From: Marivita sp.
GTDB lineage: Bacteria; Pseudomonadota; Alphaproteobacteria; Rhodobacterales; Rhodobacteraceae
DNA length: 62,278 nucleotides
Assembly: GCF_020055675.1 (NCBI RefSeq)
Contig: NZ_JAIPUS010000018.1
Span: 1-62,278 of the forward strand
Reading direction: 5' to 3'
The notes under the pieces were generated by a model that saw nothing but the letters and a program-made list of their open reading frames with translations, ran no database searches and had not been told where the DNA came from. Shown in pieces: positions 267-9,372 of the stretch. Position 1 is the stretch's first letter, and each line of letters starts with the position of its first letter. The translations under genes were made by a program, and so were the position numbers.

Positions 267-1421
267 TCAACTCGCGACGGCAAGTGCCTTTTTGGGGTCA
301 TAGAACGGGATCGGCGCAACGACACCGCCGCGTGTTTCGCCAAGTTTGTCGACTGTTACCTCGGTGCCGATATCCGTATGGCCGACGTCCAGCATTGCGA
401 GGGCGATGTTCTTTGCCAGCCGCGGAGAATAGACAGCCGACGTGATCGTGCCAATCTGCACGCCATCCTTCAGGACCGGCCAGAAGAAATCGTTGACGCC
501 CTCGAAAGGAACGCCTTCGATCTCAATACCTGTCAGCCGCTGCTTGACACCTTTTTCCTTGATCCGTTTCAGCGCCTCCTTGCCAACGAAGTCGGCCTCC
601 ATGTCAAGATTGACAAGACGGTCCAGGTTCAACTCGTAGGGGTTGTTCGCGAGGGTCATGTCGGCGTGGTAAGACAGCATGCCTGCCTCGATTCTGCGAA
701 TGCTGGAGGTGTGGCCGGGTCTGAGACCCATCGGGTAACCGACATCCAGAATATGCTCCCAAAGCCGGCTGCCAGCGGAGCCGTCACGCAGATAGATCTC
801 GTAGCCCAGTTCGCTCGTCCAGCCCGTGCGCGAAATGATCAGGGGAACCCCGTACCAATCGTATTCCATGAAACGGAAATATTTCAGTTCTGTCGGCTTG
901 AAGCCAAAGGCCTTGCGCAGGATATCGCGCGATTTGGGACCTTGAAGCTGCAAAGGTGACACATCGGGTTCGGACAATTCGACATCCATCCCGGCATTCA
1001 CCGCGACGCCCCGCGCCCACAGGAGAACATCGCTGTCCGCGATCGACAGCCAGAAATGATCCTCGGCCAACTTGAGCAGGATCGGGTCGTTGATGATACC
1101 GCCATGCTGATCGGTGAGCACCACGTATTTGCATTGCCCGACCTCGCAGGTCGAAAGGTCACGCGCGCACAAATACTGGGTGAAGCGGGCCGCATCCGGG
1201 CCCGTGATCTCGACCTGGCGCTCCACCGACACATCCGCAAGGGTCGCGTGGTTGATCAGGCTCCAGAAGTTCTGTTCCGGATCTCCGAAATCGCGGGGGA
1301 TATACATGTGGTTGTACACTGAAAAGCCCTTGGCCCCCCAGCGCAGCGCGGCGTCGGAATATGGGGATTTCCGGACTTGGGTGCCAAAGCTGAAATGTGC
1401 GAATTCTAGTTCATGTGCCAT
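267..1421 (-). CDS. DmdA/GcvT-family tetrahydrofolate-dependent methyltransferase
   Basis: A 384-residue protein of the aminomethyltransferase (GcvT) fold, which moves a methyl or one-carbon group onto tetrahydrofolate in the cytoplasm. The N-terminal third resembles DMSP demethylase DmdA: a GFSVYNHM segment near residue 32, then SVERQVEITGPDA near 65. GGIINDP near 107 carries the Asp conserved in GcvT proteins, and GWTSELGYEIYL lies near 200. Length fits DmdA (about 365) better than many GcvT relatives. It is the last gene of the operon, 27 bases after the acyl-CoA ligase. The substrate could be DMSP, but the DmdA clade has many paralogues with other methyl donors, so I do not give the symbol. 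Confidence 0.8.
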   Translation of the reverse strand: MAHELEFAHFSFGTQVRKSPYSDAALRWGAKGFSVYNHMYIPRDFGDPEQNFWSLINHATLADVSVERQVEITGPDAARFTQYLCARDLSTCEVGQCKYVVLTDQHGGIINDPILLKLAEDHFWLSIADSDVLLWARGVAVNAGMDVELSEPDVSPLQLQGPKSRDILRKAFGFKPTELKYFRFMEYDWYGVPLIISRTGWTSELGYEIYLRDGSAGSRLWEHILDVGYPMGLRPGHTSSIRRIEAGMLSYHADMTLANNPYELNLDRLVNLDMEADFVGKEALKRIKEKGVKQRLTGIEIEGVPFEGVNDFFWPVLKDGVQIGTITSAVYSPRLAKNIALAMLDVGHTDIGTEVTVDKLGETRGGVVAPIPFYDPKKALAVAS

Positions 1422-1448
1422 GATATGTATCCAGTCTGGGGTAAGGGG

Positions 1449-3062
1449 TCAGCCTTTTGAGCGGACCAGATCACGTAGCTCGTTCTTGCGGATTTTGCCT
1501 GTAGAGGTTTTCGGAAGTTCGCCAAAGACCACCTTCTTGGGCCGCATGTATCCTGCCAGGCGCTCTCTTGCGTGCGCCAGCAAGTCGTCTTCGGTTGCTT
1601 CCCCCGACAGCTCGACAAAGGCGCAGGGCACTTCGCCCCATTTTTCATCGGGCAAGGCGACAACCGCCGCGAGGCTGACGGCCGGATGGGAATAAAGCGC
1701 TTTTTCCACCTCGATCGAGGAGATGTTTTCACCCCCCGAAATGATGATGTCCTTTGAGCGGTCCCGAATCTCGATGTAGCCATCTGCGTGCTGCACCGCG
1801 ATGTCGCCCGACCAGAACCAGCCGTCCTTGAAGGCCTTGGCGGTTTCCTCGGGGGCTTTCAGATAGCCTTTCATGACGATGTTGCCGCGAAACACGATTT
1901 CGCCCAGGGTTTCGCCGTCCCATGGCACCGGGGTGCCGGTGTCGGGATCGAGCACCAGCACGTCCTCCTCAAGCTCGTAGGCGACGCCCTGACGCGCTTT
2001 CATCTCGGCCTGCTGCTCGGGTGACAGCGCGCCCCATCCGGGTTTTTCCGCGCAAACGACGGCAGGGCCGTACACCTCGGTCAGGCCGTAGACATGTGTA
2101 ATCGAGATACCCATCGCCTCCATCCCTTCGATCACGCTGGCGGGGGGGGGCGCGGCGGCGGTCATCATCTTGATCTTCTGCGGAAAATCGCGCTTTTCCG
2201 CTGCACCGGAAATCATCGACATGATGATCGGTGCCCCACAGAGATGCGTCACGCCATGATCTGCGAAGGCGTCATAGATCGCGTCGGCGCGGGGCGCGCG
2301 CAGGAACACATGCGTTCCCGCAAGCATGGTGATGGTCCAGGGAAAGCACCATCCGTTGCAGTGAAACAAGGGCAGCGTCCAGAGATAGACCGGATGATGC
2401 GGCATTTCCCAGGTTACAACGTTGTTGACCGCGTTGGTCCATGCTCCACGGTGCGAGTAGACCACGCCCTTGGGCCGCCCCGTGGTCCCGGAGGTGTAGT
2501 TGAGCGCCAGCGCATCCCACTCATCGTCCGGCAGCGCATAGGCGAAGTCGGGATCGCCCTCTGACAGAAGTGCGTCATATGTGAGCGCACCTATCCTGTT
2601 GCCCCCCGGCCCTTCGCTGTCTTCGATGTCGACGATCAGAAGATCACGCCCCGATTGTGCAACAGCTTCGGCGGCCATGGCCGAACACTCGGTATCGACC
2701 AAAAGGACCTTCGCTTCGCCGTGTTCGAGAATATAAGCGATCGTTCCGGCATCGAGCCGCGTGTTGTTCGCGTTCAGAACGGCGCCGATCATCGGCAGCG
2801 CCAGCGCACATTCAAGCGCCTCGGGGATGTTCGGTGCGATCAGGGCAACCGTGTCGCCCTTGCCGATCCCGCGCCTCGCCATCGCCGAGGCAAGCCGTTT
2901 GCAACGCGCCGCGACCTCGCCCCAGTTTCGCCGGATCGATCCATGTACCTGCGCGGGCAATTCCGGATGCACGCGCTCCACGCGTTTGAGCATCGACACC
3001 GGCGACAGCGCCGTATGATTGGCGGCAACGCGTGCCAGTTCCGGGCCGTCGAACGTCTTCAT
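1449..3062 (-). CDS. Acyl-CoA synthetase (AMP-forming), possible methylmercaptopropionate-type ligase
   Basis: A 537-residue ANL-superfamily ligase that adenylates a carboxylic acid and makes its CoA thioester. Motifs are complete: YTSGTTGRPKGV, YGLTEVYGP, GWFWSGD, and the C-terminal lysine loop GKIRKNEL. The N-terminal half resembles the bacterial group close to plant acyl-activating enzymes rather than textbook DmdB. The start is placed at 3062 because that ATG overlaps the crotonase stop as ATGA; an upstream ATG at 3074 is in frame. By position it would activate the acid left after demethylation by the next gene product, or an unrelated short or aromatic acid. Confidence 0.88.
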   Translation of the reverse strand: MKTFDGPELARVAANHTALSPVSMLKRVERVHPELPAQVHGSIRRNWGEVAARCKRLASAMARRGIGKGDTVALIAPNIPEALECALALPMIGAVLNANNTRLDAGTIAYILEHGEAKVLLVDTECSAMAAEAVAQSGRDLLIVDIEDSEGPGGNRIGALTYDALLSEGDPDFAYALPDDEWDALALNYTSGTTGRPKGVVYSHRGAWTNAVNNVVTWEMPHHPVYLWTLPLFHCNGWCFPWTITMLAGTHVFLRAPRADAIYDAFADHGVTHLCGAPIIMSMISGAAEKRDFPQKIKMMTAAAPPPASVIEGMEAMGISITHVYGLTEVYGPAVVCAEKPGWGALSPEQQAEMKARQGVAYELEEDVLVLDPDTGTPVPWDGETLGEIVFRGNIVMKGYLKAPEETAKAFKDGWFWSGDIAVQHADGYIEIRDRSKDIIISGGENISSIEVEKALYSHPAVSLAAVVALPDEKWGEVPCAFVELSGEATEDDLLAHARERLAGYMRPKKVVFGELPKTSTGKIRKNELRDLVRSKG

Positions 3063-3871
3063 TTGCCTGTCCATTCTGGCATCGGTTCCTTGCGCGTGAA
3101 GGCGTTGATCCCGGCCACGGTATCCTCGGCCATCATGTTTTCCGCCATCACGCGACCGGCATAGGAATAGGCCTCTTCCAGCGGCATCTCGGCCTGTTCG
3201 TAAAAACCGCGCTTGCCGATCTTGACGGCGGCCGGAGATTTATCCGCGATAATTCGCGCCATTTGCATCGTCGTGTCCTCGACTTCGGCCAGCGGCACGA
3301 CGCGGTTCACCAGACCCATTTCGGCGACCCGCGCGGCGGGCAGAAATTCCCCAAGCAGCAGCATTTCCATTGCCATCTTGCGCGGCACGTTGCGCGACAG
3401 GGCAACCATCGGGGTCGAGCAGAACAGCCCGATATTCACTCCGGATGTTGCGAATGTCGCATCCTCTGCTGCCACCGCCAGGTCGCAAGAGGCCACAAGC
3501 TGGCAGCCTGCCGCCGTGGCAATGCCCTTGACCTCTGCGATCACCGGCTGAGGCAGATGCACAACGCGCAGCATCATTGCCGAGCACTTGGCGAAGAGGT
3601 CCTGGAAATACTGGAAGCCCCCGTCGTCATCCGCCCGGCGCGCCGTCATTTCCTTGAGATTGTGACCGGCGCAAAAATGTTTGCAGCCGCTGCGCAGGAT
3701 CACGGCCTTTACGCTGCGGTCGTCCGCGATCGTGTCGAAGGTCCGTGACAGCGCGTCCAGCATCTCCTCTGACAGTGCATTGATGGATTTGGGAGCGTTC
3801 AGCGTCAGAATGGCAATGCCATCCTGGTCCGAACGCAGGATCAGCTGATCGTTTTCCAAAGTTCCGTCCAT
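3059..3871 (-). CDS. Crotonase-fold protein (ECHDC3-like) lacking both catalytic glutamates
   Basis: A 270-residue enoyl-CoA hydratase/isomerase family protein. The CoA-pocket segment HFCAGHNLKEM near residue 65 is intact. At the two positions where hydratases carry catalytic Glu, it has AAGCQLVASCD (Gln) and FATSGVNIGLF (Gly). The sequence most recalls human ECHDC3-type proteins. DmdD, the methylthioacryloyl-CoA hydratase of DMSP degradation, depends on those glutamates, so this protein cannot use that mechanism unchanged. The start is the ATG at 3871, with GGAGAGAG directly upstream; a TTG at 3883 is less likely. Its 3' end overlaps the ligase by four bases. It may bind CoA thioesters or use other residues. 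Confidence 0.85.
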   Translation of the reverse strand: MDGTLENDQLILRSDQDGIAILTLNAPKSINALSEEMLDALSRTFDTIADDRSVKAVILRSGCKHFCAGHNLKEMTARRADDDGGFQYFQDLFAKCSAMMLRVVHLPQPVIAEVKGIATAAGCQLVASCDLAVAAEDATFATSGVNIGLFCSTPMVALSRNVPRKMAMEMLLLGEFLPAARVAEMGLVNRVVPLAEVEDTTMQMARIIADKSPAAVKIGKRGFYEQAEMPLEEAYSYAGRVMAENMMAEDTVAGINAFTRKEPMPEWTGK

Positions 3872-3922
3872 AACTCTCTCCAATGTGCCCCGGCCCTGTC
3901 CGGTGGCGTCAGCCTGCCCAGG

Positions 3923-4387
3923 TCAGATAGCCAGGTCGAGACGCGGCTTCCAGAAGGGGCGAAACAGTTCGATCTTGGGGCAGCGGTTCATCACCACTTT
4001 CAGCCCCGCGTCTTCCGCCAGTTTCGCGGCATCATCATCATAGACGCCAATTTGCCCCCACAAGACCTTTGCGCCGATCGCGATTGCCTGTTCGGTGATG
4101 GCGTAAAGCTCTTCCCTGGGGCGGAAGACCTCGACCATGTCAACGGGACGGTCGATCTCTTGAAGCGAATGCACCACCGGGATCCCGCGAATCTCGGTCA
4201 GGTTCGGATTAGGATTTACCGGGATCATATCATATCCGGTCTCGTGAAGCACACGCAGCACGCCATAGCTGAACTTGGTCTTGTCTGCGCTGGCCCCGAC
4301 CATGGCGATCGTGCTCACCGATTTCAGGATATCAGAGAGGTAACGCTGGTCGTAATCGTAGCGGTCATCAAGCGCTGTTGCGGGCAT
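3923..4387 (-). CDS. CoA-binding domain protein, YccU-like
   Basis: A 154-residue single-domain Rossmann-like CoA-binding protein. Visible marks are TIAMVGASADKTKFSYG near residue 26, the nucleotide-binding glycine turn, and the C-terminal MNRCPKIE segment typical of the YccU group. It resembles the N-terminal domain of succinyl-CoA synthetase alpha without the ligase half. Such proteins have no firm enzymatic role. Here it sits one base after the ferredoxin stop and before the crotonase gene, so it is translated with CoA-thioester enzymes and may carry or protect a CoA intermediate. That last point is inference. Confidence 0.85.
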   Translation of the reverse strand: MPATALDDRYDYDQRYLSDILKSVSTIAMVGASADKTKFSYGVLRVLHETGYDMIPVNPNPNLTEIRGIPVVHSLQEIDRPVDMVEVFRPREELYAITEQAIAIGAKVLWGQIGVYDDDAAKLAEDAGLKVVMNRCPKIELFRPFWKPRLDLAI

Positions 4388-4388
4388 T

Positions 4389-4757
4389 TTAACGTTCCTT
4401 GGGTGTGGCGATGTCCGCCTTCAGCTCATGCGGCTCCAGCGGATCGAGGAAGGGGTTGCGGTAAAGCTGGCCGTGACTCTCGACGCCGATTTCGAGCGTC
4501 AGGTCGCTTGTCGGGCGCGCGACGCAGAGCAGGACATAGCCGTTGTTGATCTGACGGTTGTTCAGCGCCACCTGGCGGCGTTGATCGACTTCGCCGGACG
4601 TCAGCCTGGCCGCGCAGGTGATGCACCCGCCGTATTTACAGCCATATGGCAGATCGACGCCCTGCTCGCGCAGGGTGTCGAGCAGGGGCCTGCGCGCCTC
4701 GACCGTGTAGGTCGCATCGCCACGGTTGGCGATTGTGATGCGACAGGTCTCGGTCAC
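4389..4757 (-). CDS. [2Fe-2S] ferredoxin, plant type
   Basis: A 122-residue electron carrier. PYGCKYGGCITCAARL followed about 40 residues later by LLCVARP gives the four cysteines of a plant-type cluster (C-x4-C-x2-C...C). The start is assigned to the GTG at 4757 because it overlaps the oxidase stop as GTGA. The longer open frame to 4889 lies wholly inside that upstream gene and is arginine-rich shadow sequence. No reductase is encoded nearby. Close coupling to the SBP56 homologue suggests it takes electrons from, or gives them to, that enzyme or the methyltransferase, but no partner is proven. Confidence 0.88.
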   Translation of the reverse strand: MTETCRITIANRGDATYTVEARRPLLDTLREQGVDLPYGCKYGGCITCAARLTSGEVDQRRQVALNNRQINNGYVLLCVARPTSDLTLEIGVESHGQLYRNPFLDPLEPHELKADIATPKER

Positions 4758-6112
4758 AGCCAGATATCGCTGGTGCAGTCGCCACCGGGGTAACGGGTCT
4801 CGTGGCAGCGGCTTGGACCATTGGGCTCCTGGCCGAAATCGACGATGAAATCGGGGTTGATCTTCATGCCGCCGTTTTCGACATCGCAATCGATCATCAC
4901 CATGACACCACCTTGCTCACGGATCTCGGGGTAGAACTGGTTGTCCCAGGTGCTGAACAGAGACGTCGTGACATAGAGCCGCTTGCCATCAAGACTTAGC
5001 TGATACATCTGCGGCCCGCCCGCGACCTTGACACCGTTGACCTCGGGGGCCTTTCCCAGCAAGCCGCCCATCCAGACCTGCCCGGTAAGCACCGGATTGT
5101 GGGGGTCCTCGATGTTATACTGGCGCATGTCGCCATGCAGCCAATTGTTCAGGTAAAGGTACTTGTCATCCATCGACACCAGGATCGCGCTCATCACGCC
5201 GGGCACGGGGATCGGCCACTCGGGATGTGGCTCGTTTTCCACGTCGATGATCTTTTCCCATTCCCACTTGCCCGCCTCTGACTTCCAGAAATGGATCACG
5301 TTGGCCGACAGGGCCGCGCCGCAGAAGCCATGCGTGCTGTCGGGGTCATGGTGGAACTTGACCTCTAGCGGGATCAGACCGTCTTCGCCCAGATACATCG
5401 TCTCGACCGGCTCGCGCTTTTCGAAATCCCAGATGTGCAGGCGCCGACCATACTTGAGGTGCCCCACTTCTTCCAGATCGAAGCCCGGCATGAAGGTGTT
5501 TGGCGCGGCCCATTCGGACGAGACCATGACGTTGTGGCGCGGTTGATACCAGAAGTCATAGCCGAAGGGGATGTCGCCCATGGAGTTTTCCCACCGGCCC
5601 ACGATCTCGAAATCCTTATCGAGATGCAGGTAGCCGCCGGGCGCTTCACCCTGAGCATCGCCGAGAAAGGAGATAATGATTTCGCTTCCGAGGCAGTGCA
5701 CGGTGTGCGGACCACTTAGGTTGGTCTTCGATTTGATCTCGGCCCCGTCAATCACCTTGTGCAGACGCGGCGCAAAGGGGTCGGTGGCGGTGTCGATGAC
5801 GTGGATGTTGTTTGACCGAACCCCCGGCACCAGGAGGTATTTGCGCGACATGCCCGTGTCATCGTGGCACGAGGAGCAGGCGTTCCAGCCCATGTGGTGC
5901 AGCTCATCGCCGATGCCCGGCATCTCGAGCCGGTGAACGACCTGGCTGTAAGTCGGGCTGTCAGGATCGGCATCAACAGTCGCCAGGTAATCCGGCTTCT
6001 GAATCCCGGTCCCTGTATAAATGGCGATCGTGTAAAGCAGCTTTTCGCGGGGGGCCTTGATGGCCTCGGCCGGGCTTGCATACCCCGGACCGCAACATGC
6101 GCCGTCCATCAT
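4754..6112 (-). CDS. SBP56 / methanethiol oxidase family protein
   Basis: A 452-residue seven-bladed propeller protein of the selenium-binding protein 56 family; bacterial MtoX and human SELENBP1 oxidise methanethiol to formaldehyde, hydrogen sulfide and peroxide. It aligns by eye with SELENBP1 from end to end: HHMGWNACSSC at residues 72-82 (cysteines 79 and 82), GYDFWYQPRHNVM, NWLHGDMRQY, and the C-terminus RYPGGDCTSDIW. The start is the ATG at 6112, after GGGAGGAG. No signal peptide follows this start, unlike characterised periplasmic bacterial MtoX. First gene of the operon, divergent from an IclR regulator. Copper dependence is family knowledge, not visible here. Confidence 0.88.
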   Translation of the reverse strand: MMDGACCGPGYASPAEAIKAPREKLLYTIAIYTGTGIQKPDYLATVDADPDSPTYSQVVHRLEMPGIGDELHHMGWNACSSCHDDTGMSRKYLLVPGVRSNNIHVIDTATDPFAPRLHKVIDGAEIKSKTNLSGPHTVHCLGSEIIISFLGDAQGEAPGGYLHLDKDFEIVGRWENSMGDIPFGYDFWYQPRHNVMVSSEWAAPNTFMPGFDLEEVGHLKYGRRLHIWDFEKREPVETMYLGEDGLIPLEVKFHHDPDSTHGFCGAALSANVIHFWKSEAGKWEWEKIIDVENEPHPEWPIPVPGVMSAILVSMDDKYLYLNNWLHGDMRQYNIEDPHNPVLTGQVWMGGLLGKAPEVNGVKVAGGPQMYQLSLDGKRLYVTTSLFSTWDNQFYPEIREQGGVMVMIDCDVENGGMKINPDFIVDFGQEPNGPSRCHETRYPGGDCTSDIWL

Positions 6113-6124
6113 CACACTCCTCCC

Positions 6125-6172
6125 TTGCGATAACGTTTCGATTCTCGTAATTCGATAATTAGATTCTCGCAA
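6125..6172. promoter_or_regulatory. Divergent promoter region with repeated elements, likely IclR operator
   Basis: The 70-base gap between the oxidase start and the iclR-type start contains a direct repeat GATTCTCG at 6140-6147 and 6162-6169, spaced 22 bases (about two helical turns). It also has TTCGAT at 6138-6143 and 6151-6156, and outer inverted hexamers TTGCGA (6125-6130) and TCGCAA (6167-6172). IclR proteins bind paired sites in such positions, so this is the natural operator for the adjacent regulator. No clear -35/-10 pair stands out in the AT-rich core. Confidence 0.5.
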
Positions 6173-6182
6173 GGTAAAAAAT

Positions 6183-6950
6183 ATGCATCTTGAACGCATA
6201 ATAGGCATCCTGGAAATCGTGGGGCAGTTGGAGGAGGCAAGTGTGGCCGAGATCTGCGCTCATATGGACCTGCCAAAGCCATCCGCCTACAGGCTGGTAC
6301 AGGATTTGGTCAGCGTCGGTCTGCTGGAACCCGTCACGCGCGGACAGTTCGCCATCGGCACCCGCCTGAAGCGGATAACCCACAGCGACCATTCGGACCG
6401 CGCGTTGCTGGACTTGATGGCACCCCCACTAAAACAAGCCGCCACGGAATTCGGAGCTGCGTTTTTCCTCTCGCGGCTGCGCGGCAAGACCGTGGAAATC
6501 ATCCATGTCGAGACACCGGAAACAGGGGTATCCTACCTTCATCCGGGGTTGGGAAAGCGCCCCTTGCACGCCTGCTCCTGCTCGAAGGCGGTTGCCGCCT
6601 TTTCGCCCGATCTCTTCGTGACCGGCGAAATGGAAGGCCGGTTGCGCGCCTACACCGAATTCACCTTGACCAACGTGCATGACCTCGAAGCGGAATTCGA
6701 CACGATCCGGCGCCGCGGCTTCGCGGAATGCGTCGAAGAAATCGAACGGGGATTGTGCTCGGTCGCGGCGCCGCTTGCACAAAGCGGACCCGGGGCCACG
6801 ATGTCGATCGGCGCAGCCGGTTCAGTGCGTGTGTTCACGTCAGCTTTCCGCGAAATGCTGGGCCCGCAGATCGTTCAGATCGCACAAGAGATTGCACCAA
6901 ACCTCGGCTGGGAGGCCAGCCCGGACATAAGAGCCAGGGCGGGCGCCTGA
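6183..6950 (+). CDS. IclR-family transcriptional regulator
   Basis: A 255-residue regulator. Residues 1-60 form a winged helix-turn-helix (EASVAEICAHMDLPKPSAYR is the recognition region); the remainder is an IclR effector domain, with the conserved pattern CSCSKAVAAF near residue 130. It starts 70 bases from, and points away from, the oxidase/ferredoxin/ligase/methyltransferase operon, so it is the likely local repressor or activator responding to a small acid substrate. The ribosome-binding site is weak (AAGG at 6171-6174). Its effector cannot be read from sequence. Confidence 0.9.
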   Translation: MHLERIIGILEIVGQLEEASVAEICAHMDLPKPSAYRLVQDLVSVGLLEPVTRGQFAIGTRLKRITHSDHSDRALLDLMAPPLKQAATEFGAAFFLSRLRGKTVEIIHVETPETGVSYLHPGLGKRPLHACSCSKAVAAFSPDLFVTGEMEGRLRAYTEFTLTNVHDLEAEFDTIRRRGFAECVEEIERGLCSVAAPLAQSGPGATMSIGAAGSVRVFTSAFREMLGPQIVQIAQEIAPNLGWEASPDIRARAGA

Positions 6951-7022: not shown

Positions 7023-8183
7023 TTACGACGTCAACCTGTCGCCCAAACGTTCCAACATCCCCAGGCACTTCGACATCTGGTCGAGCGATACGAATTCATC
7101 CGCCTTGTGCGCCTGTTCGATTGAGCCGGGGCCACAAACCACCACGTCGGTGCCGAGCGCCTGGAACAGGCCCGCTTCGGTTCCGAAGGCGACCAAGTCA
7201 CTGCTGTTTGCGCCGGTAAGATCGCTGACGATCCGGCGGGCCTCATTTTCGTCGGTGGGGAAAAGGCCGATGACCTCTCCGATGACTTCTGTCGTGATCG
7301 ACGCCTCCGGGTAAACGGCCTGCATTTTCGGCAGCAGCTCTGCCTCGCAAAACGCACGCAGGTTTTCCTTGACAAATTCCGCGTCTGACAACTGAACCGG
7401 GCGCATTTCCCATTCGACATGGGCGGACGGTGCGATCACGTTATGCGCAACGCCGCCAACAAGGGCGCCCAAGTTCACGGTTGTCCAAGGCGGATCAAAC
7501 GGGCAATCGGCCGGGGCGCGGGCACGCAGGGCATCCTTGAGACCCAGAAGATGGTGCACGTAGCGCACGGCATATTCGACCGCGTTCACCCCATGATCGG
7601 GGTTGGACCCGTGCCCGGCCAGCCCCTCGAACCGTGTGGTATATTCATTGCATCCCTTGTGCCCATCGATGATGCGCATCTCGGTGGGCTCCCCGATGAT
7701 CGCGATTCCGGGGGTCAGGCTCCGTTCGCTGAGGTGTTCGACAAGATGGCGCGCGCCAAGGCACCCGACCTCTTCGTCATACGTGAAGGCGAAATGCACA
7801 GGGCGGTCGCCGACGCGGTCCGCGAAATGCGGGGCCATGGCAAGTGTTGCCGCGATGAACCCCTTCATATCGCAGGCTCCGCGGCCATAGAGCCGCCCAT
7901 CCACCGCCCCCATCCGAAACGGATCGCGGGTCCAGGGCTGGTCGGCGACGGGCACCACATCACTGTGACCGGACAGAAGAATGCCGCCGTCGCGATCGGG
8001 ACCAAGCGTTGCGAAAAGATTGGCCTTTGTTCCGCAGGGCGATGACATGACCTCACAGCGCGCACCGGCATCTTCCAGCAGACCGGCCATGTGCAGGATC
8101 ATGTCGAAATTACTGTCAGCGGACATCGTCGGATAGGCGATCAGATCGCCGAGGATTTCCGTGCTGCGCTCAAGATACCCCAC
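7023..8183 (-). CDS. M20-family deacetylase, acetylornithine deacetylase (ArgE)-like
   Basis: A 386-residue zinc amidohydrolase of the M20A group. Metal-site motifs are present in order: LLSGHSDVVPV, GRGACDMKGF, TYDEEVGCLGA and IIGEPTEM. ArgE proteins remove acetyl from N-acetylornithine. The start is a GTG at 8183 with AAAGGA eight bases upstream, four bases after the stop of the M24 hydrolase, so the two are co-translated. Beside an ectoine-hydrolase-like gene, a deacetylase for N-acetyl-2,4-diaminobutyrate is an attractive alternative to arginine synthesis. That substrate change is inference. Confidence 0.82.
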   Translation of the reverse strand: MGYLERSTEILGDLIAYPTMSADSNFDMILHMAGLLEDAGARCEVMSSPCGTKANLFATLGPDRDGGILLSGHSDVVPVADQPWTRDPFRMGAVDGRLYGRGACDMKGFIAATLAMAPHFADRVGDRPVHFAFTYDEEVGCLGARHLVEHLSERSLTPGIAIIGEPTEMRIIDGHKGCNEYTTRFEGLAGHGSNPDHGVNAVEYAVRYVHHLLGLKDALRARAPADCPFDPPWTTVNLGALVGGVAHNVIAPSAHVEWEMRPVQLSDAEFVKENLRAFCEAELLPKMQAVYPEASITTEVIGEVIGLFPTDENEARRIVSDLTGANSSDLVAFGTEAGLFQALGTDVVVCGPGSIEQAHKADEFVSLDQMSKCLGMLERLGDRLTS

Positions 8184-8187
8184 GGCT

Positions 8188-9372
8188 TTAGTCCTTTACG
8201 AAGAGCTTGCGTTCCACATTGCAGAGCGTTTCGGCCACTCCGTCTTCCGTGATCAGGATGGTCTCGGTTGTCTCCAGACCCCAACTGTCCATCCAAAGCG
8301 CAGGCATGAAGTGAAACGTCATGCCCGGTTGCAGAACGGTCATGTCCTCGCTTCGGATGGAGGCTGTGCGTTCGCCCCAGTCGGGCGGGTAACTCAGACC
8401 GATGGGATATCCACAGCGTCCGTTGCGTTCGATGCCGTGCTTCTGACACACATCGATAAAGGCGTTGGCGATATCGCAGGTCCGGTTGCCGGCGCGCGCC
8501 GCTTCGACCCCAGCTTCGATTCCCTCCAGCTGCGCCTTTTCAGCGTCCAGAAGGGCCTGCGGCGGCGTCCCCAGATAAACGGTCCGGCACAGCGGCGCAT
8601 GGTAGCGGCGGTAGCAGCCGGACAATTCGAAGAACGTCGCCTCGCCTTCGCGCATCGGATCGCCGTTCCACGTGAGGTGCGCAGCCGTCGCATCGAGGCC
8701 GGACGGGGTCAGCGGCACGATCGCCGGGTAGTCGCCCCAGATGTCGTCCACCCCGGTGATCCCTGCGTGAAAAATTTCGGCCACGAGTTCGTTCTTGCGC
8801 ACACCGGGTGCAGCCTTTTCGATGGCGATCCCGAGAATCTTTTCGGAGATCCGCGCCGCGTTGCGGATGAAAACGACCTCTTCCTCTGACTTGATCAGGC
8901 GCTGCCAGTTCACCAGCGACATGGCATCCATGATCGTGGCTTCGGGCAATTCCGCGCAAAGCACCTCGTGGGCCTTGGCGGAATAGTAGTAATTCTCCAT
9001 CTCCACGCCGATCCGGGACGTCTCCAGCCCCAGGTCCCGGAAATGTCCCGCCAGATCTTCCATGGGGTGTTGCAGCGTCGACTGCACGAAGTGGTCGGAA
9101 TAGCCATGGATATTGTCCTCGGACATCCAGCACGTGCGCGCCGCGCCGACCGCATCCATGTTCCGGCCCCACCAGATAGGCTCGCCCTCCATCTGGATGA
9201 TCACACCCTGATGCACGTAAAAGGACCACCCGTCATACCCAGTCAGCCAGGCCTGGTTCGACGGGTCGGTCACAAAAATCGCGTCAAGCCCTGCGCGCTG
9301 CATCGCTTCGCGCGTCAAGGCCAGGCGGCGGTCATATTCCATCTCGCTGAAGGGGGCGTGTCCCTGTGGCAT
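8188..9372 (-). CDS. doeA: M24-family hydrolase, ectoine hydrolase (DoeA/EutD)-like
   Basis: A 394-residue creatinase-fold protein that matches ectoine hydrolase along its length. DPSNQAWLTGYDGWSFYVHQ lies near residue 36; later come NYYYSAKAHE, LVNWQRLIKS, GDYPAIVPLTP, GYPIGLSYPPDWGERT and TFHFMPALW. DoeA opens the ectoine ring to N-acetyl-2,4-diaminobutyrate. The Asp pair that binds metal in true M24 peptidases is replaced (RRYHAPLCRTVYLG), as in metal-free creatinase-like members. Start ATG at 9372 with AGGA six bases before it. It shares an operon with the M20 deacetylase. Related creatinase-like hydrolases acting on other cyclic compounds remain possible. Confidence 0.8.
   Translation of the reverse strand: MPQGHAPFSEMEYDRRLALTREAMQRAGLDAIFVTDPSNQAWLTGYDGWSFYVHQGVIIQMEGEPIWWGRNMDAVGAARTCWMSEDNIHGYSDHFVQSTLQHPMEDLAGHFRDLGLETSRIGVEMENYYYSAKAHEVLCAELPEATIMDAMSLVNWQRLIKSEEEVVFIRNAARISEKILGIAIEKAAPGVRKNELVAEIFHAGITGVDDIWGDYPAIVPLTPSGLDATAAHLTWNGDPMREGEATFFELSGCYRRYHAPLCRTVYLGTPPQALLDAEKAQLEGIEAGVEAARAGNRTCDIANAFIDVCQKHGIERNGRCGYPIGLSYPPDWGERTASIRSEDMTVLQPGMTFHFMPALWMDSWGLETTETILITEDGVAETLCNVERKLFVKD

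Follow-up and report, generated by a model that had tools for sequence, protein, structure and literature searches.

The window analysed here is a complete contig of 62,278 nucleotides from Marivita sp. (NZ_JAIPUS010000018.1; G000:C59), in which seven genes occupy positions 267-6950, six of them on the minus strand behind a divergent IclR-family regulator. Comparison with related loci shows that the conserved unit is made up of three genes and not six, namely those encoding SBP56, a ferredoxin and a CoA_binding_2 protein. SBP56 of this type is already known as a methanethiol oxidase, and the whole is read here, with a probability of ca. 0.5, as a methanethiol-oxidising operon under IclR control that would receive its methanethiol from a methylated sulfur acid through demethylation, CoA activation and demethiolation. 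The features are as follows.

4754-6112, minus strand: SBP56, homologue of the cytoplasmic SELENBP1-type (cluster 1) methanethiol oxidase, 452 aa (Pfam SBP56, 683 bits)
4389-4757, minus strand: plant-type [2Fe-2S] ferredoxin with a GTG start (Pfam Fer2, 57.7 bits; Cys 40, 45, 48 and 78)
3923-4387, minus strand: CoA_binding_2 protein with a single cysteine, Cys136 (Pfam CoA_binding_2, 125.6 bits; gathering score 22.8)
3059-3883, minus strand: crotonase of the ECHDC3 family (PRK08139) without both catalytic glutamates (NF006008, 387 bits; cut-off 313)
1449-3074, minus strand: AMP-forming acyl-CoA ligase of the PRK08162 type (NF006020, 824 bits; cut-off 677)
267-1421, minus strand: DmdA-like protein with a GcvT fold, presumed tetrahydrofolate-dependent demethylase (NF009133, 379 bits, below the cut-off of 410)
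6183-6950, plus strand: divergent IclR-family regulator (Pfam IclR_C and HTH_IclR)
6113-6182, no strand: divergent intergenic region of 70 bases between the IclR and SBP56 starts, presumed to hold promoter and operator

Direct reading of the letters confirmed the seven genes and the coordinates given by an earlier, sequence-only reading of this DNA, together with the tight packing it had noted: the SBP56 and ferredoxin genes overlap by 4 bases (GTGA, 4754-4757), a 1-base gap at 4388 separates the ferredoxin and CoA-binding genes, and the crotonase and ligase genes share an ATGA (3059-3062, given a ligase ATG at 3062). For the crotonase, the ATG at 3871 is a likelier start than the annotated TTG at 3883.

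The conserved SBP56, ferredoxin and CoA-binding core

Two sets of loci were compared. The first, from named genomes, holds the best 80 of 578 SBP56 relatives and divides into 41 loci that are not AT-rich and 39 that are (G+C <0.42). Thirty-eight of the latter are titled Pelagibacteraceae or Pelagibacterales (SAR11) and one SAR116; SAR116, Granulosicoccaceae, Hyphomicrobiales and Geminicoccaceae are further titles met in this set. Since many named loci are metagenome bins, some titles may be wrong, and the 80 loci are not independent because 38 are SAR11 relatives. The second set derives from 295 Rhodobacteraceae genomes, 101 of which have an SBP56 match; these matches fall into clade I (ca. 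66-96% identity, ca. 40 genomes), clade II (ca. 42-45%) and five more at 31-34%. Forty family loci were fetched, of which 39 were usable, 34 with at least 76% identity and 5 with 66-72%; L070 was left out, having no usable SBP56, and three genomes (G079, G090 and G136) give two loci each. Some loci of the two sets come from the same genome (see the identical SBP56 of L044/L172, L039/L119, L045/L166, L040/L123, L035/L114 and L036/L117), so that the sets are kept unsummed. Counts were taken from tblastn because the codon-usage gene caller is approximate and missed SBP56 in L051, L056, L062 and L063, in all of which tblastn found it.

The ferredoxin gene follows SBP56 in all of these best 80 of 578 relatives and the CoA-binding gene is found in 78 of them, the two misses (L149 and L173) being loci in which the contig stops ca. 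450-490 bases past SBP56. Family loci of at least 76% identity gave 33/34 for the ferredoxin (L058 is without it) and 34/34 for the CoA-binding gene; at 66-72% identity the counts are 5/5 and 1/5, respectively. Paracoccus seriniphilus, whose SBP56 is 68% identical, also has the ferredoxin, with the CoA-binding gene absent from the core. The sequence-only reading had described the ferredoxin and CoA-binding protein as added to a pathway resembling that for dimethylsulfoniopropionate (DMSP), a view replaced here by that of constant partners of this SBP56. The IclR gene is divergent from the core in 35/41 non-AT-rich named loci and in 16/34 family loci of at least 76% identity.

The ferredoxin has the four ligands of the C-X4-C-X2-C-Xn-C pattern (C40, C45, C48 and C78) and scores narrowly under the TIGR02008 cut-off (79.4 vs 81.15). 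The CoA-binding protein is, by its domain match, a member of the CoA_binding_2 family, with 2DUW and 1IUK as solved relatives. In many SAR11 loci the CoA_binding_2 gene is directly followed by another (e.g. L137, 11179-11604), which is ca. 40% identical to that of the window; the core module is therefore able to carry two different CoA-binding proteins. SBP56 itself evolves slowly, its median identity to the window in AT-rich (SAR11) loci being 90% vs 72% for the ferredoxin, 78% for the CoA-binding protein and 44% for the crotonase. In L069 (genome G014) a clade I SBP56 (ca. 70%) is broken in two, the second match containing both a TGA and a TAG, and adjoins ferredoxin and CoA-binding matches. 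In the SAR11 locus L137 (3376-8169), genes near the core include a Rieske oxygenase and, named by reading, EgtB/EgtD-like genes as well as small kinase and nucleotidyltransferase genes.

SBP56 as a probable methanethiol oxidase

By analogy with tested relatives, the window SBP56 very likely oxidises methanethiol. Two such enzymes, RdMTO from Roseobacter denitrificans and RlMTO from Ruegeria lacuscaerulensis, yield sulfane sulfur from methanethiol both in vitro and in E. coli and form no H2O2; changing any of three cysteines removes most of this activity (PMC10936201). These cysteines occur at positions 82, 143 and 448 of RdMTO (spacing 61/305) and 76, 140 and 456 of RlMTO (spacing 64/316; PMC10936201). 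The window SBP56 shares the surrounding motifs GWNACS, HTVHC and GGDCT (the last as a pattern GGDCS/T), with its cysteines at C79, C140 and C446 and a spacing like that of RdMTO; C79 and C140 are invariant in the window and nine relatives, and C446 is found in 9/10. Human SELENBP1 needs H73, H74, H137, H140, D189 and E252 for activity (PMC10362175), and shares all these copper residues with the window protein, in which they map to H72, H73, H136, H139, D186 and E250 and are invariant across an alignment of the window and nine relatives of 63-95% identity.

A total of 129 SBP56 copies was compared, corresponding to 119 distinct sequences as some genomes are present twice. Four copper-residue patterns were all matched in 121/122 clade I and 5/5 clade II copies. 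Cysteine spacing is 61/305-307 in 118/122 clade I copies (exactly 61/306 in 115, the window included) and 64/316 in 5/5 clade II copies, and by the published cysteine positions clade I would correspond to the RdMTO branch.

The better known mtoX operon of Hyphomicrobium and Ruegeria pomeroyi also encodes an SBP56 methanethiol oxidase, and in R. pomeroyi an IclR gene lies directly upstream of mtoX, in parallel to the window IclR; transcription of this mtoX is raised by methanethiol, methylmercaptopropionate (MMPA) and DMSP (PMC5739008). MtoX is however predicted to be periplasmic and occurs with SCO1/SenC and MauG (PMC5739008), whereas the window operon has neither of these and has ferredoxin and CoA-binding partners instead. 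The window protein was ruled out as MtoX (147 bits vs a cut-off of 650, NF052453), and no signal peptide was recognised by eye.

As for earlier descriptions, PMC10936201 treats the enzyme, and its main text uses none of the terms operon, gene cluster, ferredoxin and CoA-binding. In the open-licence PMC literature, where an absence weighs little, no description was found of the ferredoxin and CoA-binding partners, of a link to an ECHDC3-type crotonase or of the SAR11 spread; papers bringing ECHDC3 together with SELENBP1 have the titles of expression, proteome or review-type studies. In work on SAR116, most subclades are predicted to have methanethiol oxidases (SELENBP1/mtoX; PMC12262181), and in PMC10203303 a selenium-binding protein comes up a single time, in a table of expression.

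Accessory genes and their linkage to the core

The sequence-only reading had proposed conservation of the six-gene order as a check. The order SBP56, ferredoxin, CoA-binding, (rhodanese), (metallo-beta-lactamase, MBL), crotonase, ligase, DmdA-like does recur, in 6/41 non-AT-rich named loci (L104, L107, L108, L110, L113 and L116), in 2/34 family loci of at least 76% identity (L033 and L055) and on the Phaeobacter inhibens plasmid pP30_b (L071), where rhodanese and MBL genes are inserted; with this recurrence in named loci, family loci and a plasmid it is more than chance. Only the three-gene core is near-invariant, however, and the idea of one fixed six-gene pathway was rejected, the core being constant while crotonase, ligase and DmdA-like genes vary. 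The latter three all occur near the core, in any order, in 9/41 non-AT-rich named loci. In the 34 family loci of at least 76% identity, rhodanese was found 10 times, crotonase 9, ligase 7, DmdA-like 6 and MBL 2. Rhodanese, MBL, crotonase and DmdA-like genes are each also found near the core singly, and the ligase is seen only alongside the crotonase.

The crotonase has as best solved matches 3MYB (262 bits) and human ECHDC3 (2VX2, 206 bits), and is thus closer to the latter than to the mitochondrial enoyl-CoA hydratase (ca. 106 bits). A SAR11 crotonase (L137) gave 214 and 213 bits against the same two structures and passed the cut-off of NF006008 (PRK08139) with 337.5 bits. To our knowledge, ECHDC3 has no demonstrated function. 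DmdD catalyses its reaction via Glu121 and Glu141, the E121A/E141A double mutant being without activity, and is unable to free methanethiol from MMPA-CoA (PMC3660561). The window protein has Gln128 and Gly148 at these two positions, a correspondence supported by the identical 20-residue spacing, and the description "Glu-less" given to it in the sequence-only reading holds; with both glutamates replaced, a DmdD-like hydratase was rejected as its identity. Q and G occur in all 74 crotonase hits that match both patterns, out of 90 hits in the fetched loci, some of which are not beside SBP56. The other 16 fail at least one pattern and include that of L051 (30% identity, outside such an operon), which has the canonical E at the second site. 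A GLFCSTP motif is present in 86/88 crotonase hits; judging from the spacing, the counterpart of its C155 would be residue 148 of DmdD, next to the peptide touching the Glu121 site. The ligase belongs to PRK08162 (824 bits, cut-off 677) and not to DmdB (NF005426, 280-281 bits, cut-off 822).

The best solved relative of the DmdA-like protein is DmdA itself (3TFH, 284 bits), whose W197, Y203 and Y206, which we take to be important residues, are kept as W201, Y207 and Y210. All 42 DmdA-like hits of at least 55% identity retain the W and the first Y; 34 also retain the second Y, and the other 8 have F there. The solved trimethylamine N-oxide demethylase has Y at the W position, and distant GcvT-like proteins (ca. 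20-40%, mostly SAR11) have F in 29/39 hits, the other 10 being off-pattern. One study, which numbers residues by its own alignment, singles out a W as the key residue of DmdA specific to DMSP, with F in another clade (PMC7487153); this would be the W position of 3TFH.

Linkage of the DmdA-like family to SBP56 does not depend on the core. A match at E 1e-100 is present in 49 family genomes, 35 of which also have SBP56, and by hand count 11 of these 35 have the two genes on the same contig within 4 kb of each other: seven with clade I (G000, G032, G036, G123, G208, G281 and G290) and four with clade II (G006, G113, G161 and G282). Twenty DmdA-like loci were drawn from the 49 genomes, a biased sample as it includes loci already known to be near an SBP56; in these, OsmC stands beside the gene in 11, crotonase in 10, ligase in 9, and a clade II SBP56 lies within 5 kb in 4. 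A membrane-like protein of 218-225 aa adjoins the clade II SBP56 in L079 (3392-4048), L088 and L092, the L079 copy being without a Pfam match.

Genes with roles in sulfur, formaldehyde and copper chemistry fit as partners of SBP56 in relatives. The MBL protein of the Phaeobacter operon gave 367 bits to NF040641 over model positions 131-422, the dioxygenase part of Blh, with the full-length cut-off at 625, and the preceding gene has a rhodanese domain; by their domains, the two together are a split version of the bifunctional sulfurtransferase/dioxygenase Blh. Such genes are absent from the window operon, and the window genome has three homologues of the Blh-type dioxygenase, all on other contigs. 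P. seriniphilus (L072) shows the order SBP56, ferredoxin, PpoB2 copper chaperone, with an S-(hydroxymethyl)glutathione dehydrogenase annotated nearby. In L064, SBP56 and ferredoxin are divergent from a class III alcohol dehydrogenase/glutathione-dependent formaldehyde dehydrogenase (608 bits vs a cut-off of 544), and the locus also encodes an MBL protein with 61% identity to the Blh-like one. L066 has a similar dehydrogenase, judged by its first residues, and an adjoining putative esterase (PF00756), a candidate S-formylglutathione hydrolase. In L065 and L067, of the same group as L064 and L066, formaldehyde and sulfur genes were not seen within the stretch listed.

Proposed function and alternative readings

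In the proposed scheme, a methylated sulfur acid (DMSP or a closely related compound) would donate a methyl group to tetrahydrofolate through the DmdA-like protein, the PRK08162 ligase would convert the resulting methylthio acid to its CoA thioester, and the ECHDC3-type crotonase would free methanethiol from this thioester. The copper-dependent SBP56 would then, as shown for its relatives, oxidise methanethiol to formaldehyde and sulfane sulfur (or H2S). For what follows, chemistry suggests as a guess that the ferredoxin may give electrons for copper/cysteine turnover or for reduction of a bound persulfide, and that the CoA-binding protein may offer CoA as a sulfur acceptor or act as a carrier of CoA thioesters. 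In some relatives a split Blh (rhodanese and persulfide dioxygenase) would carry the sulfur onward. The sequence-only reading had suggested catabolism of a methyl or organosulfur compound; this stands with respect to the SBP56 active-site residues, the tested relatives and the Blh-type and formaldehyde genes, though not as one fixed six-gene pathway.

A more specific version of the crotonase step is doubtful. It holds that ECHDC3-family crotonases could be thiol lyases, eliminating methanethiol (or H2S) directly from a beta-thio acyl-CoA, for instance 3-(methylthio)propanoyl-CoA, and handing it to SBP56. If so, direct thiol loss by a glutamate-less crotonase would make the missing DmdC unnecessary, and human ECHDC3 and SELENBP1 might act sequentially on methionine-derived methylthiopropionyl-CoA.

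Several observations weigh against the reading of a methanethiol-oxidising operon fed by its accessory genes. The DmdA-like protein scores 378-379 bits on the DMSP demethylase model NF009133, below the cut-off of 410, and a 33-35% identical GcvT-like gene near the SAR11 core was rejected as DmdA, having F and not W at the key position. In the 41 non-AT-rich named loci, crotonase is present in 13, ligase in 10 and DmdA-like in 14, and since most core loci are without them these genes are perhaps passengers. Ligase, rhodanese, MBL, IclR and DmdA-like genes (the last at 55% identity or more) were each found over thresholds near the core in 0/39 AT-rich named loci. Crotonase-ligase pairs occur in L179-L181, from genomes without an SBP56 match, and the SBP56 of Rubrobacter (63%) is without an annotated adjoining ferredoxin or CoA-binding gene. 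Concerning the enzyme itself, human SELENBP1 variants C80S and C141S stay active and are even slightly more so (PMC10362175), and products disagree, with H2S and H2O2 for SELENBP1 (PMC10362175) vs sulfane sulfur without H2O2 in PMC10936201; SELENBP1 and RdMTO/RlMTO thus conflict both in what the cysteines do and in the sulfur product.

Alternatively, the core could be a general unit for detoxification of methanethiol or of thiols, with crotonase, ligase and DmdA-like genes being separate catabolic genes (for short-chain acids or methylated amines) parked alongside. The absence of these genes, over thresholds, from most non-AT-rich named loci and the crotonase-ligase pairs in genomes without SBP56 both favour it, as does the activity of SELENBP1 on several alkyl thiols (PMC10362175). 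On the other side, DmdA-like genes recur by SBP56 of two clades in differing arrangements, and the crotonase immediately precedes SBP56 on the same strand in 38/39 AT-rich named loci, which are close relatives and not independent. Furthermore, a widespread ligase paralogue (53-56%) served as a control and had none of crotonase, SBP56, CoA-binding, MBL, rhodanese, OsmC or DmdA-like genes nearby over thresholds in 20 loci, hand-picked from a list covering part of 248 genomes. Altogether such a detoxification unit is somewhat unlikely. A cluster in L190 (8848-12721) brings together crotonase, CoA_binding_2, a Blh-like MBL protein (74% identical to that of Phaeobacter) and a PRK08162 ligase without SBP56, which is located elsewhere in that genome; it adjoins an XRE-cupin regulator and possibly represents a related thiol-acid pathway.

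Improbable is also a variant of the DmdABCD pathway of DMSP, with the dehydrogenase encoded elsewhere and the crotonase as methylthioacryloyl-CoA hydratase. The window operon resembles DmdABCD in having a GcvT-fold demethylase, an acyl-CoA ligase, a crotonase and, in the proposed scheme, methanethiol as a product. No DmdA homologue in the genome is over the cut-off and the operon protein is far ahead of the next-best (378 vs 98 bits), and two PF12806 domains, which we take to be of the DmdC kind, occur on other contigs together with a DmdB-like ligase of 742 bits (cut-off 822). By the same scores, 379 being below 410 and the next 98, a canonical DmdA was not found in the genome. The operon differs from DmdABCD in being without DmdC, in its ligase family and in its proteins remaining under the DmdA and DmdB model cut-offs. 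Both DmdD glutamates are replaced (Q128 and G148), and the corresponding E121A/E141A enzyme is dead (PMC3660561).

The lack of DmdC, already noted in the sequence-only reading, applies to the operon up to the contig end, where its downstream side is cut: 266 bases separate the operon from this end, and positions 1-62 of the window read on the minus strand MTKRKRYTAEFKAKVALEAI, a transposase-like start that we take to be that of an IS3-type transposase. An insertion element may thus cut the operon on this side.

Two further readings are very improbable. Demethylation of a methoxy acid, an option of the sequence-only reading for which no support was found as to substrate, would have the DmdA-like protein as an O-demethylase and SBP56 acting on a substrate other than methanethiol; the weak similarity to the O-demethylases of syringate (72 bits) and vanillate (48 bits) is far exceeded by the DmdA score (379 bits), and sulfur genes occur within the same operon elsewhere. 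The least probable of all, a role in selenium metabolism (methylselenol or selenite) in place of sulfur, could draw on the selenium binding of the SBP56 family and the N-terminal CC motif (C6, C7), but SELENBP1 is active without selenium and gives no H2O2 from methaneselenol (PMC10362175); no selenium gene was noticed beside the core, although no search aimed at such genes was made.

Methanethiol is a main product of oceanic DMSP breakdown. The present data point to a ferredoxin and a CoA-binding protein as constant partners of a methanethiol oxidase found in Rhodobacterales, SAR11 and some bins titled Gammaproteobacteria, and offer concrete genes for how SAR11 may handle methanethiol. They also provide, as far as searches show, a first genomic hint at a role for an ECHDC3-type crotonase. 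If the ferredoxin or the CoA-binding protein were required, in vitro work on SBP56 alone would have left out some of the system's components, and this might be relevant to the conflicting results on the sulfur product.

Finally, the region upstream of IclR (7023-9372 of the window, minus strand) contains an acetylornithine-deacetylase-type gene and a DoeA-like ectoine hydrolase gene, the latter with 591 bits vs a cut-off of 613.

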